From Thermodesulforhabdaceae bacterium (GTDB lineage: Bacteria > Desulfobacterota > Syntrophobacteria > Syntrophobacterales > Thermodesulforhabdaceae): a DNA stretch of 52,222 nucleotides. Below are positions 44,868 to 52,222 of this stretch, piece after piece. Each line of letters begins with the position of its first letter. Position 1 is the stretch's first letter. The notes under the pieces were generated by a model, which had not been told where the DNA came from, did not search any database, and saw nothing but the letters and a program-made list of their open reading frames with translations. The DNA is taken from positions 1 to 52,222 of the forward strand of contig JBBFKT010000012.1 of NCBI GenBank assembly GCA_037482015.1. The letters run 5' to 3'. The translations under genes and the position numbers were made by a program.

Positions 44868-45374
44868 ATGAAACCAGAGTTTGAAGAACATTTTCAGAAG
44901 GTTATTCAACTTGAAGGCGGCTTTAGGCTTATAAAAAACCCTACAGAGGAGACTCACACTTATGCAGGTATTTATAGAAAGATTTATCCCCAGTGGGAAG
45001 GCTGGAAATATATTGATAAAGGAGAAACTCCGCCAACAGAACTCGTCCGTAAATTTTACTATGAAAACTTCTATCAACCCCTTGAAGGTATAGAAAATCC
45101 GGAAATAAGATTTTCTATATTTGAATTCGGTGTAAACGCCGGTTTAAGGAAGGCTATAAAAATAGCTCAGGCGGTTGTTGGGACATCTCCTGATGGTATT
45201 TTAGGACCAAAAACTCTTGCTGCGCTAAATACCGTAGTTCCTGAAGATTTTATAAAAAGTTACCTTATTGCAAGGATAAAACATTATCTTGACCTCGCAA
45301 ATGCAGATCCTAGGAAATATGGCGTATATCTAAGAGGTTGGCTGAACAGGGCATTTAAAGGAGTGAATGTATGA
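44868..45374 (+). CDS. Phage-type endolysin (GH108 plus C-terminal peptidoglycan-binding domain)
   Basis: A 168-residue muramidase of the GH108 type. The N-terminus has the catalytic Glu16 in IQLEGGF, followed by THTYAGIY. The C-terminal part holds a PG_binding_3-like domain (FEFGVNAGLRKAIKIAQAVVG, then GILGPKTLAALN). There is no signal peptide, as expected for a holin-released lysin. It overlaps the holin gene by 4 bases. TGGAGG precedes the ATG. No other phage structural, packaging or integrase gene is visible nearby, so this is an isolated lysis cassette. Confidence 0.85.
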   Translation: MKPEFEEHFQKVIQLEGGFRLIKNPTEETHTYAGIYRKIYPQWEGWKYIDKGETPPTELVRKFYYENFYQPLEGIENPEIRFSIFEFGVNAGLRKAIKIAQAVVGTSPDGILGPKTLAALNTVVPEDFIKSYLIARIKHYLDLANADPRKYGVYLRGWLNRAFKGVNV

Positions 45375-45799
45375 ATCTTATAGGAATAGGAACGATAATT
45401 GAGACCGTTGGCAGGATTGCCGATGACCTTATAACCACAGACAAAGAAAGGCTTGAACTTGCTTTAAAGGAGCAAGAAATAGAAGCGGAGATTCTTGAAA
45501 AAGTCCATGAGACAAACATTGAGGAGGCAAAGCATCCCAGCATATTTGTTGCAGGCTGGAGACCCTCTATTGGGTGGATAGGTGCAATAAGCCTTGGTTA
45601 TCAATTCGTTTTATATCCTCTTTTAACGTGGCTTTGGAAGATATTACAGGCAAAAAATATAATTCCCTTAAATATGGATCCACCTCCCACGATGGAATCA
45701 GATATACTATGGACAATTATTGTCGGGATGCTCGGAATTGCGGGATTAAGAACTTACGATAAATTAAGAGCTGTTGATACAAAAAGAATCAGCAGATAA
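45371..45799 (+). CDS. Holin-like membrane protein (3TM/GTA-type)
   Basis: A 142-residue protein that starts inside the endolysin stop (ATGA). The N-terminal half is an amphipathic charged helix (about residues 20-45). The motif FVAGWRPSIGWIGAISLGYQ precedes two membrane helices (about residues 60-85 and 110-130). The FVAGWRP-IGW pattern is typical of phage and gene-transfer-agent holins. It probably exports or permits escape of the adjacent endolysin. A role in non-lytic export of enzymes (type X-like secretion) is a possibility but is inference. Confidence 0.8.
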   Translation: MNLIGIGTIIETVGRIADDLITTDKERLELALKEQEIEAEILEKVHETNIEEAKHPSIFVAGWRPSIGWIGAISLGYQFVLYPLLTWLWKILQAKNIIPLNMDPPPTMESDILWTIIVGMLGIAGLRTYDKLRAVDTKRISR

Positions 45800-46376
45800 G
45801 GGTAAAAGCCTGAAGTTAGCGGTTAGAATGATTTAGTTATGCTCTGGCAACGAATAATTATCGTATTGTGACCTGCGCTCTGAATGTTTTTTCGGGAATG
45901 GGACATCGAGAAACTAGCTGGCAGGATATGTTTTGGTGTAGCAAAGTATCAGATAACAGAATTGGTTGGCAAAAAAACTTGCAAAGAAAAACATCTTTTT
46001 TAAAATGAAGCTGACCTGGGCTATTCCCGAATTTTTCATTCTCTTTCAGCTACATATCCTCATTTCACGAAATGGCCTGGTTTTTTAATTGTGGGAAGTG
46101 AAGATAGTTATTTGTAGGGGTATATCGAATATTTATAAGAATCCTCATGAAAAATATCACAAGTAAAGACTATAAATCTTTTTAGGATGTTTGTTCCCTA
46201 TAAAGCTTTGGATGGAAGGTTTTCTTCCTGGTAATAGCCGTTAAGAAGTTTCGTAACAGGTTGAAAGGGTTGGATTTATAAAAGAAGTGGTAGGTTCATT
46301 GGGAAAGGCAGGGAGACCATATACAAAAAGGTTAAATTCCTGCAAGGTTAATTTAGGGTTTAGGGAGGATGTTCTA
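45800..46376 (+). other. Non-coding region between the lysis cassette and the beta-helix gene
   Basis: About 580 bases hold no credible gene. An upstream in-frame extension of the next gene exists but is not supported by a ribosome binding site. A TTGGC-N8-TTGCA element near 45966-45983 resembles a sigma-54 site, but its spacing is one base too long. A small CATTTC/GAAATG hairpin lies near 46065. No terminator is evident after the holin gene. Confidence 0.5.
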
Positions 46377-48381
46377 ATGGATCGAGAAGGTAAGAAGCCA
46401 GGGGGTGTTGTTCTAGCGATTGTGTCATTTGTATGTTTTACATTTGTTATGGCGAGTTTTTCCTATGGAGCCGTTCTGTATGCGGCTCCGGAAGCTCAAG
46501 GGAGCGGCGATTGCTCTTCCTGGACAAACGCCTGCACCCTGCAAACAGCTCTTTCCGGTGCTGGGAGTGGTGATGAGATCTGGGTAAAGGCGGGGGTTCA
46601 TTATCCTGGTGCGGCTGGCAACCGGACCGCCACCTTTCAACTTAAAAGTGGCGTCGCGTTATATGGCGGTTTTGCCGGGACGGAGACCAGTCGGGATCAG
46701 CGAGACTGGCAGACCAACAAGACCATTCTAAGTGGTGATATTGATAAGAACGACATCAATACCGACGGTAACTATATTGCCGAGACAACCGCCGACATCC
46801 AGGGGAGTAATGCCTATCATGTTGTAACTGGAATTAACATTGACGGCACCGCTGTTCTGGATGGTTTTATTATAACCGCCGGGCAGGCGAATGAAATTTA
46901 CGTGCCTCATAGCTACTGTGGCGGGATGTACAACGATAGTTCCAGCCCTACTATTGCTAATGTGGTTTTTTCGGGTAACTGGGCAGGGGATTGCGGCGGG
47001 ATGTGTAACAACAATAATAGCAATCCCACTCTTAATAATGTGACTTTTTCGGGAAACGGGGCATCCTACTGTGGTGGAATGTGCAACCAAGAATACAGCA
47101 ACCCCACCCTTGCCAATGTAACCTTTTTGGAAAACTCGGCAAACAGGAATGGTGGCGGTATGTGTAACTACAAATCCAGCCCTGTTCTTACTAATGTAAC
47201 CTTTTCGGGCAACTCGGCAGACTATGGTGGTGGGATGTACAATCAAGACTACAGCAGTCCCGTTCTTACTAATGTAACTTTTTCGGAAAATTCGGCGGAA
47301 TGGTTTGGTGGCGGGATGCGAAATGCCGGTTATAGCAGCCCAATTCTTACTAACGTAACCTTTTCGGGCAACTCGGCAGGGTACGGCGGTGGAATGGACA
47401 ACAATGATAATTCCAATCCCACCCTTATCAATGTGACCTTTTTTGAGAAACTCAGCGAACAACAATGGCGGCGGAATGAGCAACGGCAATTCCAGCCCCA
47501 CTCTTATCAACGTGGCTTTTTATGGCAATTCGGCATCATGGGGAGGCGGTATTATGAATTACAATTCCAGTCCCGCTATTACTAATGTGACTCTTTCGTG
47601 TAACTCAGCGTGGTACGGTGGCGGGATTTTCAACAGAAATTCCAGCAATCCCACTCTTACTAATATCATCCTTTGGGGAAATAGTGCATCTGTAGGCCAA
47701 AGCATTTACAACGAAGGGAGTACACCGAGTATTTCCTACAGTAACATTCAGGGCTGTGGAGGTTCCGGTGGCGGATGGCAGTCGGCTTGCGGCGTAGATG
47801 GTGGACATAACATTGATCAGGATCCGCTATTTGTGGATCCATCAGGTGGCAATCTGCGCCTTCAAGCGGGATCGCCTGCTATTGATAAAGGAAACAACAG
47901 CGCTGTTCCCTCTGGCGTTACCACTGACCTTGACGGCAATCCCCGGTTTGTAGATGGTAACGGAGATGGCACTGCTACAGTGGACATGGGTGCTTTTGAA
48001 TACCAGTCCGTATATTATACTCTCCAGGTGACAATATCCGGCACAGGAAGCGGCACGGTGAGCGCCACGGGTTGCACCTTGAACTGGACGGGGAATACGG
48101 GAACCTGCACGGCCTCTCATGGGACTTCCATAACCTTGAGTGCAACACCATCTTCGGGTTCTACCTTTGCAGGGTGGTCTAACGGGACGGGGTCTGCTTC
48201 GGGTTGTTCAGGCACAGGAACCTGCAGTTTTACGATAACCCAGAACTCCAGTATAACCGCCACCTTTAACCAGTCTCAGGGAGCGGTGGCAGTGCCTACG
48301 ATGACTGAGTGGGGAATGATAATGTTTATGATTATTGCGGGTCTTGGTTCCGTTTACTACCTGAGAAGAAGAGACATTTAG
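46377..48381 (+). pseudogene. Frameshifted beta-helix surface protein with IPTL-CTERM sorting tail
   Basis: ATG 46377 follows GGGAGGAT and begins a signal peptide (GVVLAIVSFVCFTFVMASFSYG). About ten 25-27-residue repeats of the type SNPTLTNVTFSGNSA-GGGMYN form a right-handed beta-helix. The first frame runs only to 47585; the correct continuation is in the next frame from about 47443 to the stop at 48381. The break lies at a T6 run (47439-47444): removing one T restores NVTF-LRNSANNNGGGMS. The C-terminal part carries a choice-of-anchor Q-like domain, a Gly/Ser-rich repeat and VPTMTEWG, a membrane helix and YYLRRR (IPTL-CTERM). It is probably exported and anchored. The break could be mutation, sequencing error or phase variation. 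Confidence 0.8.
46912..47690 (+). repeat. Ten degenerate ~78-bp repeats encoding beta-helix rungs
   Basis: Each unit encodes GGGMxN, Asn/Ser-rich residues, SP(T/V)LTNVTFSGNSA and a short variable piece. DNA similarity between units is high around the AATGTAACCTTTTCGG block. Repeats of this kind recombine easily, so unit number may vary between strains. Confidence 0.75.
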
Positions 48382-48784: not shown

Positions 48785-50066
48785 TGTGTCTGCTTGACAA
48801 CAGGGGTAAGAAGAGGCTTTCCTCCTGGTGGGTGAGTGTTAGTAAACCTAAATGAAAAAGAAGGAAAGCCCCATGCCCGAGTTAAAAGAAATTTGGCTCA
48901 TGTTCAAAACCGGTGCAACCTAACCAATTGGGAGATAAAAGCAGGGAGACGCTGTTGATGGGGTTAGAGTTCCGAGGGTCAGATAGGGAGATTTCAGACC
49001 CAGGATAATTCCTGAAAGAAGTAAAGCCTCGCTGGATCTCGGAGAGGTAATTTTGGGTTTGTTTGCTTCCGGGTGCAGTGTTAGAGCTATTTCCCGGTTT
49101 ATGGAAACGATTTATGGAGCTTACTATTCCCCTGCCAGTGTTAGCCGTCTCACGGATGTAACGACCCAGGCAATAGATAGATGGAGAACCGTCCTGTTAA
49201 GGAGGAATATTTTGCGCTCTACGTAGATGCAACTTTTCTGAATGTAAGGCGTGGTTCTGTGGGAAAAGAACCTGTCTATGTGGTTGTTGGGATTAATTGG
49301 GATGGGGCAAGAGAAGTTCTTGGTTTTTGGTTTTTCGGTTCTAAAGGGGAGAGTGCCACCAATTGGCAGGAAATACTCGGTGAACTCAAATCAAGAGGGC
49401 TTAAAAGATTTAAGTTGTTAGTAGCTGACGGTCTAAAAGGACTTAAAAAGGCTGTTCTTATGGAATTTCCTGGGACACGATCCCAGCTTTGTGTGCTTCA
49501 TGCTGTAAAGGGAGCTTTGATAAAGGAGTCCCCTCCTCAGCCCTCCCCGTCAACGGGGAGGGAGTGGAAGTTCCCCGCTGATGGGGAAGGTGTGAAAATT
49601 CTCCAGTTGACGGGGATGGCATGAAAGTCCCCCCTTGATGGAAATGGTGTGAAAGTTTCTCAGTTGACCAGAAGGATGTGTAAGTCCTCCCGTTGATGGG
49701 GGATTTAGGGGGCAACAGAGCATCAAGCAGGAAAGAAGCCAGACAGGCTCTTATTGAGCTTAAAGAGAAATGGGTGAAAATATATCCTGAAGTGGTAAAG
49801 AGGTGGGAAGAGGACTTTAAAAAACCTTACTACCTTTGTATCCCAAGGAAATTAGAAGATTTATTTTACACTACCAATCAATTGGAAAGGCTCATGAAAG
49901 AAATCAAAAGAAGAACCAGAGTTATAGAGGTTTTTCCAGAGCCAGAGGCTGTTTACAAAGTGATTTATTTGGTATTATCGGAAATGAAAGATACAGCCAG
50001 AGAAGCTTGCCAGGGTTCTAGGAAACCGTTTCTAAATTCAGGAAAGTCTTTTTATCTACAGACACA
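48785..50066 (+). mobile_element. Decayed IS256-family insertion sequence
   Basis: The interior is a degraded IS256-type transposase. A short inverted match, TGTGTCTG (48785-48792) and CAGACACA (50059-50066), marks possible ends and gives ~1.28 kb, the size expected for the family. GGCTTTCCT (48815-48823) pairs with AGGAAAGCC (48862-48870), covering the ribosome binding site of the transposase ATG at 48873, a translational control common in insertion sequences. The ends are not proven, and no target duplication was identified. Confidence 0.55.
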
Positions 50067-50076
50067 CTTGGACTAA
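48873..50076 (+). pseudogene. IS256-family transposase remnant with stops, a frameshift and a repeat insertion
   Basis: Reading from ATG 48873 gives MPELKEIWLMFKTGAT, then stops at 48921, 48936 and 48984 in the same frame, which otherwise continues as VRVPRVR-GDFRPRIIPERSK and GLFASGCSVRAISRFME. Near 49180 the frame changes; the new frame shows YVDATFLNVRRGS and LLVADGLKGLKKAVL with two catalytic Asp residues. After an ~165-bp repeat insertion the third frame gives SRKEARQALIELKEKW and YTTNQLERLMKEIKRRTR with the catalytic Glu. It cannot make an intact transposase. Confidence 0.85.
49545..49710 (+). repeat. Six degenerate 28-29 bp tandem repeats inside the transposase remnant
   Basis: The recurring core is roughly CCCGTTGATGGGGAAGGTG followed by TGAAAGT. 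Core TTGA positions (or its variants) are near 49550, 49578, 49607, 49635, 49664 and 49693, spaced 28-29 bases. The block replaces the part of the transposase between LCVLHAVKGALIK and ASSRKEARQAL. Each unit begins with a C-run and carries a G-run in its middle, so units can pair with one another. Confidence 0.75.
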
Positions 50077-50210
50077 TATTATGTTATGTTGTCTCCTGAA
50101 ACCTTTATTTGCAAACATTCAAGTGAGGAGGAATAGCTTATGAGTAGGTTTGAAAAAGCTGCTTTAAAAGGTAATGGTGGGGTTTTTTATTAGTTTTACT
50201 GACTTTCATT

Positions 50211-50404
50211 CTGGGCGTTTTCTGTGCGGTCTTTGATGGGCATGCGGGCACAAATGTAATAACAAAAGAAGATGTAACAAAGAAGATCTCGAAGCTCCCC
50301 ATTCCCTCTGGGCGTTTTCTGTGCGGTCTTTGATGGGCATGCGAGCACAAATGTAATAACAAAAGAAGATGTAACAAAGAAGATCTCGAAGCTCCCCATT
50401 CCCT
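50211..50404 (+). repeat. 97-bp tandem duplication at the signal-peptide/mature junction
   Basis: Copy 1 is 50211-50307 and copy 2 is 50308-50404; they differ at one base (GCGGGCAC versus GCGAGCAC). Since 97 is not a multiple of three, the duplication changes the frame. Each copy encodes GVFCAVFDGHA, VITKEDVTKK and ISKLPIP when read in the correct frame. Confidence 0.9.
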
Positions 50405-51051
50405 TTATTGAAAACAAAGAGCAGGTTAACGACGATGTAGCCTTTTACGCCAAGACCATCGGCGGAACGCTCTTTGTTACGAAAGATGGAGAGCTTGTCT
50501 ATTCCTTGCCGAAGTATGAAGAAAATACAGGAAACAAAAAAGGACTGAAACACGAGGAAAAGGTTACGGGCGCCAAGACAACATGCGGAGTTGCCCTCAA
50601 AGAGAGACTTATTGGAGGAAACATAAAAGAAATCAAAGGTGATGAACCCGCTCAGGCAAGGGTCAGCTACTTCAGGGGCAATGACCCGAGCAAGTGGAAA
50701 ACAGGCATAAGGACCTATGGGCTTGTAAGCCTGGAAGAGGTTTATGAAGGGATAGATCTCAAACTCAAAGCCTATGGAAATAACGTAGAGAAGCTCTTTT
50801 ATGTAAAGCCAGGTGCCAAAGCAGAGGCAATAGCCATGTCGGTGGAAGGTGCTAATAGCCTCAAGGTAGATGAAAAGACAGGGGAACTTGTGGCAGAGAC
50901 AGTGTTTGGGGAAGTGAGATTTACAAAACCTGTGGCTTACTACCTTGAGGAGCCGATGAAAAAGATAGAGGTCTCTTACAAAATAGAGGGAAATGCCTAC
51001 ACCTTTGCTATTTCTGAGTATGACAGGACAAAAACGATAGTCATAGATCCT

Positions 51052-52222
51052 CTTCTTGCATCCACATACATTGGGGGAGATAGTGGTGAGGGGGGCCATT
51101 CCATCGCCCTTGACAGTAATGGGAATGTCTATGTGACGGGATATACAGAGTCATTCAACTATCCCACAACAACAGGGGCTTATGATCAAAGCCACAATGG
51201 TGGGTATGACGTTTTTGTTTCAAAACTGAGCAATAACTTGGACACTCTTCTTGCATCCACATACATTGGGGGAGATAGTGGTGAGGGGGGCCATTCCATC
51301 GCCCTTGACAGTAATGGGAATGTCTATGTGACGGGATATACAGAGTCATTCAACTATCCCACAACAACAGGGGCTTATGATCAAAGCCACAATGGTGGGT
51401 ATGACGTTTTTGTTTCAAAACTGAGCAATAACTTGGGCACTCTTCTTGCATCCACATACATCGGGAGAGATAGTTCTGATGTCGCCAATTCCATCGCCCT
51501 TGACAGTAATGGGAATGTCTATGTGGCGGGGACTACATGGTCATCCAATTATCCCGCTACACAAGGAGCATATGATACTAATCTTAATGGGGGTACGTAT
51601 GATGGATTCATCTCGAAGTTCAATAGCTCTCTGAACACACTCCTTGCCTCTACATTTTTTGGGGGATCTAGTGGTGCTGATGGAATACTTTCGATCACGA
51701 TTGACAGTGCTGGGAATGTCTATGTTACAGGACCGGCAGACTCAAGTGATTTTCCCACAACAGCGGGGGCATATGATACATATTGGAATGGACGTACGGA
51801 TGCATTTGTTTCTAAATTCAACAATTATTTATCTAAGCTACTGTTATCCACTTATATAGGAGGATCTAGTATAGATCTTGGCATTTCCATCGCCCTTGAC
51901 AGTAATGGGAATGTCTATGTGACGGGATATACAGAGTCATTCAACTATCCCACAACAGCAGGGGCTTATGATCAAAGCCACAATGGTGGGAATGACGTTT
52001 TTGTTTCAAAACTGAGCAATAACTTGGACACTCTTCTTGCATCCACATACATTGGGGGAGATAGGGGTGAGGGGGGCCATTCCATCGCCCTTGACAGTAA
52101 TGGGAATGTCTATGTGACGGGATATACAGGGTCATCCAACTATCCCACAACAGCATGGGCTTATGATCAAAGCCACAATGGTGGGAATGACGTTTTTGTT
52201 TCAAAACTGAGCAATAACTTGG
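51052..52222 (+). repeat. 195-198 bp SBBP repeat array, running off the window
   Basis: Units begin at the LLAS codons at 51052, 51247, 51442, 51640, 51838 and 52033 (last unit cut). Each encodes about 65 residues containing STYIGGDSG, SIALDSNGNVYVTGYT, YPTTTGAYDQSHNGG and DVFVSKLSNNL. Units 1 and 2 appear identical at the DNA level; units 5 and 6 are nearly so; units 3 and 4 are divergent. Confidence 0.9.

Follow-up and report, generated by a model that had tools for sequence, protein, structure and literature searches.

The DUF7948/SBBP gene that runs off the end of contig C12, which in its entirety (52,222 bp) is the window analysed here, appears to have been inactivated recently, by ordinary loss-of-function lesions in an allele whose product would be an exported protein and a probable exosortase H cargo. 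We hold this reading with moderate confidence. According to it, GGGGTTTTTTATTA would have lost one base and, beginning 22 bp downstream, a 97-bp tandem duplication would have been gained. Together the two lesions leave the signal peptide in a frame shared by neither the start codon nor the mature domain. Since the signal peptide is out of frame with the start, translation from ATG 50140 would end after 17 codons, and the exported protein could not be made. A single error-prone repair or template-switch event may have produced both lesions.

The start codon itself is well placed: ATG 50140 is preceded by CAAGTGAGGAGGAATAGCTT, with an AGGAGG site 8 bases upstream. In three-frame translation its frame reads MSRFEKAALKGNGGVFY and then meets the TAG, and the best 12-residue hydropathy is 0.05 in this frame vs 3.03 in the signal-peptide frame. 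After the second 97-bp copy the mature domain (LPIPFIENKEQVNDDVAFYAK...) lies in the ATG 50140 frame again and stays open to the contig end. An earlier note on this DNA had assigned one frame to the start codon and the mature domain and another to the signal peptide, in an exported SBBP protein whose reading frame is broken twice, and both statements are borne out. Upstream, the signal frame has its last stop at 50172-50174, and the TAG is at 50191, which confines the one-base shift to 50175-50190. The missing base may sit anywhere in this interval, a G of GGGG being as possible as a T; the note's arithmetic, in which +97 and −1 cancel, holds in that the frame returns after the second copy, and the T that it names is one of the possible bases. 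Downstream of its stop at 50172, the signal frame has no ATG, GTG or TTG before the signal core. The first mature-frame start after the 97-bp repeats is TTG 50506, inside DUF7948, and the frames of the locus offer no other usable start before it. A search of the organism's own genome found no other intact copy of the N-terminus, and the viral contigs searched for the duplication junction and the T-run region held no copies. The features of the locus are listed in the table below.

Table. Features of the DUF7948/SBBP locus and its upstream neighbours, in window coordinates.
Feature	Position	Strand	Evidence
Second IPTL-CTERM-like-tail protein, polymorphic-outer-membrane/choice-of-anchor Q type	46287..48381	+	frame broken
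Decayed Mutator-type (IS256-like) transposase remnant, between the two tail genes	48850..50076	+	profile match, frames
Start codon and 17-codon ORF, TAG 50191-50193	50140..50193	+	sequence, three-frame translation, variant table
T6 run, directly after G4	50183..50188	+	sequence, variant table
Signal-peptide core FLLVLLTFILGVFCAVFDGHA, −1 frame relative to ATG 50140	50184..50246	+	translation, hydropathy
97-bp tandem duplication, first copy	50210..50306	+	TRF, sequence, variant table
97-bp tandem duplication, second copy, 1 internal mismatch, 1-bp junction homology	50307..50403	+	TRF, sequence, variant table
DUF7948 domain (PF25778), start of undisturbed mature protein	50404..51054	+	E 5.6e-54
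SBBP beta-propeller repeats, 195-bp DNA periodicity, running off contig end	51050..52222	+	profile match, repeat analysis

Both domains score far above their Pfam cut-offs (PF25778, 183.8 bits against 27; SBBP repeats PF06739, 148.6 bits against 20.5, E 4.2e-44), and the contig ends within the 195-bp array of the latter. At 51050-51439, two neighbouring 195-bp units are 194/195 identical, a second recent tandem duplication in this gene, in frame. The own genome holds one other SBBP match, at the very start of contig C1, where positions 1-1314 continue with repeat domains to the tail VPTMTEWGMMVFMVIAGLGSVYYLRRKGI and a stop at 1314. Exosortase H directly follows this tail on C1, which suggests that C12 and C1 adjoin. 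The SBBP gene probably continues at C1:1-1314; across this putative join, the window contributes 606 open codons downstream of the duplication and C1 another 437, ~1040 assembled codons in all.

The exosortase H gene (C1:1598-2056) is intact and passes its cut-off narrowly (86.3 bits vs 86); C1 1535-2658 comprises exosortase H (184 aa) and, by a weak match, a probable exosortase H-associated membrane protein. Elsewhere on this contig (74581-80891), tandem arrays with a period of ~66 bp extend over 6 kb and are probably a CRISPR array. No curated IPTL-CTERM model matched the IPTL-CTERM-like tail. At C1:1195-1311 it is 85% identical to the tail of the neighbouring gene at 46287-48381, and its linkage to the SBBP gene, being on another contig, is putative. 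Domain order and, granting the C12-C1 join, the tail and the adjoining exosortase gene liken the protein to DUF7948/SBBP cargo of exosortase H (IPTL-CTERM / midcut-by-XrtH type), and we consider it probably a cargo of this system. It differs from such proteins in that this allele lacks the usable N-terminal signal peptide expected of exported DUF7948/SBBP proteins, the core being out of frame. The literature we searched held little on exosortase H cargo names or on a combined one-base/duplication mechanism.

The only other protein found with such a tail, 1.8 kb upstream of the SBBP gene, is broken inside its repeats by a +1 shift near 47437-47455; its counterpart in the relative G002 is open across 909 codons. 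The transposase remnant has breaks in several frames and is further interrupted by an inserted 28/57-bp degenerate tandem repeat (GTTGATGGGGAAGG...) at 49525-49701. Further upstream of the cassette, at 44868-45799, a lysozyme-like (glycosyl hydrolase 108) gene sits beside a gene-transfer-agent-type holin. The adjacent exosortase H is itself intact, while each of its two recognised cargo genes has a broken frame. That both proteins are held off by reversible frame lesions, which would make the surface system of this environmental bacterium phase-variable, seems to us very improbable.

The DUF7948 part has a match in 12 of 59 genomes (own genome counted in). We compared 16 related loci, 15 from matching genomes and one from a Candidatus Brocadia sapporoensis contig. 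In all 16, an upstream start lies in frame with a hydrophobic signal core, and none has a tandem repeat at the signal-peptide position; this intact, single-copy state throughout speaks against the phase switch that the earlier note had proposed. The exosortase H/SBBP cassette is accessory: neither the protein nor exosortase H occurs in three of the four nearest relatives at genus and family level. The one further genome examined from the same genus has neither. Both are present in the two best-matching genomes, G002 and G045, with the G002 exosortase under the curated cut-off.

The 97-bp repeat (2 copies, 98% match, TRF score 383) has the junction CATTCCC/TCTGGGCG, and the sole mismatch between its copies is an internal G/A (Gly/Ser). 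Folded as single-stranded DNA, the region is predicted to be less stable than shuffles (z +2.25), which leaves a hairpin-driven mechanism without support. One copy of such a near-perfect tandem repeat is easily lost via recombination or slippage; with a junction homology of only 1 base, a lost copy would not be regained by recombination.

We scored the open frame for all combinations of run length (5-8) and copy number (1-3). Only a single copy combined with T7 is open (at least 662 aa), in agreement with the earlier claim that one T plus loss of one copy reopens the frame. T6 variants stop at 17 aa at every copy number tried (1-3), and T7 variants at 64 aa once a second or third copy is present, a state in which the run length makes no difference. 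Because the T6 stop precedes the repeat, copy number alone has no effect; for the same reason (the stop at 50191 lies before the duplication) the duplication is ruled out as a suppressor of the one-base loss. Either lesion reverted alone leaves the gene off, so both would have to revert together. The pair does not behave as a switch, and a switch here, although possible, is doubtful.

We consider the lesions probably real in the cell. An assembly or consensus error, in which a misjoin or strain variants placed end to end gave both the repeat and the one-base gap while the gene of the cell is intact, is the less likely but still serious alternative. The contig end inside the repeat array of this gene points towards it, as do the two copies differing by one base, as alleles of two strains might, and the crowding of both lesions within 22 bp when the gene is elsewhere open across about 3.4 kb. 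Two independent lesions would fall this close with a chance of ~1.3%, and such spacing in an otherwise clean gene favours either one complex event or an assembly fault. From the lesions it is 1.8-2.0 kb to a contig end located within a near-identical repeat, a position that calls for caution on recent breakage, but they themselves are outside the unresolved repeats. Moreover, each of the 35 further window genes that were checked is intact, and between them they carry about 94 homopolymers of 6 or more, so that general homopolymer sequencing error is judged unlikely. The 97-bp repeat is also the only tandem array with a period of at least 30 and >90% match in 472 kb (window plus C1:1-420000); this assembly does not often produce them.

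Recent breakage gains from the broken gene at 46287-48381 and the decayed transposase, which fit a real local decay of an accessory cassette and thereby favour it, from the in-frame 195-bp duplication, from the intact signal peptides of the 16 related loci and from the absence of protein and exosortase H in three close relatives. We infer that the lesions are recent from the other ~1040 assembled codons being open. This cleanness also counts against breakage: two lesions 22 bp apart in a clean gene are odd for neutral decay, and the inactivation would have to be very recent.

A reversible, duplication-driven phase variation, with the 97-bp repeat as an off state precisely lost by recombination or slippage and the one-base shift as a second element, is doubtful to a greater degree than an assembly fault. 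A surface protein, an out-of-frame tandem repeat and recent tandem duplications in the gene speak for it, and there is precedent: spontaneous out-of-frame tandem duplications are reported to make pneumococcal capsule genes (type 3 locus, cap8E, tts) phase-variable (Waite et al. 2001, 2003). The likeness is that such a duplication inside an ORF turns a surface product off, and the 97-bp period, not a multiple of 3, has the out-of-frame form that the Waite type requires. The difference is that in this type precise loss of one copy should restore the protein, whereas here the second, one-base lesion keeps the gene off after copy loss (one copy with T6 stops at 17 aa) and at every other copy number tried. 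Re-duplication would have only 1 bp of homology to work with, and the repeat is carried by none of the 16 related loci. In Xenorhabdus nematophila lrp, tandem duplications of 26-116 bp, similar in size and likewise abolishing function, were shown to be plain, non-reverting and not phase variation (PMC6786866), although lrp is a regulator and SBBP a surface protein.

The one-base element resembles homopolymer contingency loci in that a surface-protein gene is thrown out of frame near its start when a run changes by one base. In a large Neisseria meningitidis study, however, poly-A/T tracts below 9 were not counted as over-represented (PMC5084427), and T6 here is well under that meningococcal length of 9 or more. 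Neither T6 nor G4 is of hypermutable length, and the tract is commonplace rather than unusually long: the intact genes of the window hold 29 T6 and 12 T7 runs, and A/T runs of six occur at ~1.5 per kb (472 kb: window plus C1:1-420000). The reversible two-element switch of the earlier note thus finds no support in the tract, in the junction homology or in the reversion of either lesion alone.

That the T run causes frameshifting, whether programmed or transcriptional, and so restores the signal frame in a working gene, is the most improbable of these accounts. Slipping by −1 on TTT within the T6 run would lead into the signal frame, but the zero-frame codons GTT TTT TAT form no canonical X XXY YYZ slippery site, no canonical −1 slippery heptamer lies in the right frame, and the duplication would still end translation at 64 aa.

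As it stands, the locus is one more frameshifted surface-protein gene, and it cautions annotators that a start codon and a mature domain sharing a frame do not make an intact gene. The locus would matter if reads revealed a mixture of forms, for two reasons: to our knowledge, duplication-driven phase variation is on record for few organisms, and here both recognised cargo genes of one exosortase are broken beside an intact exosortase gene.
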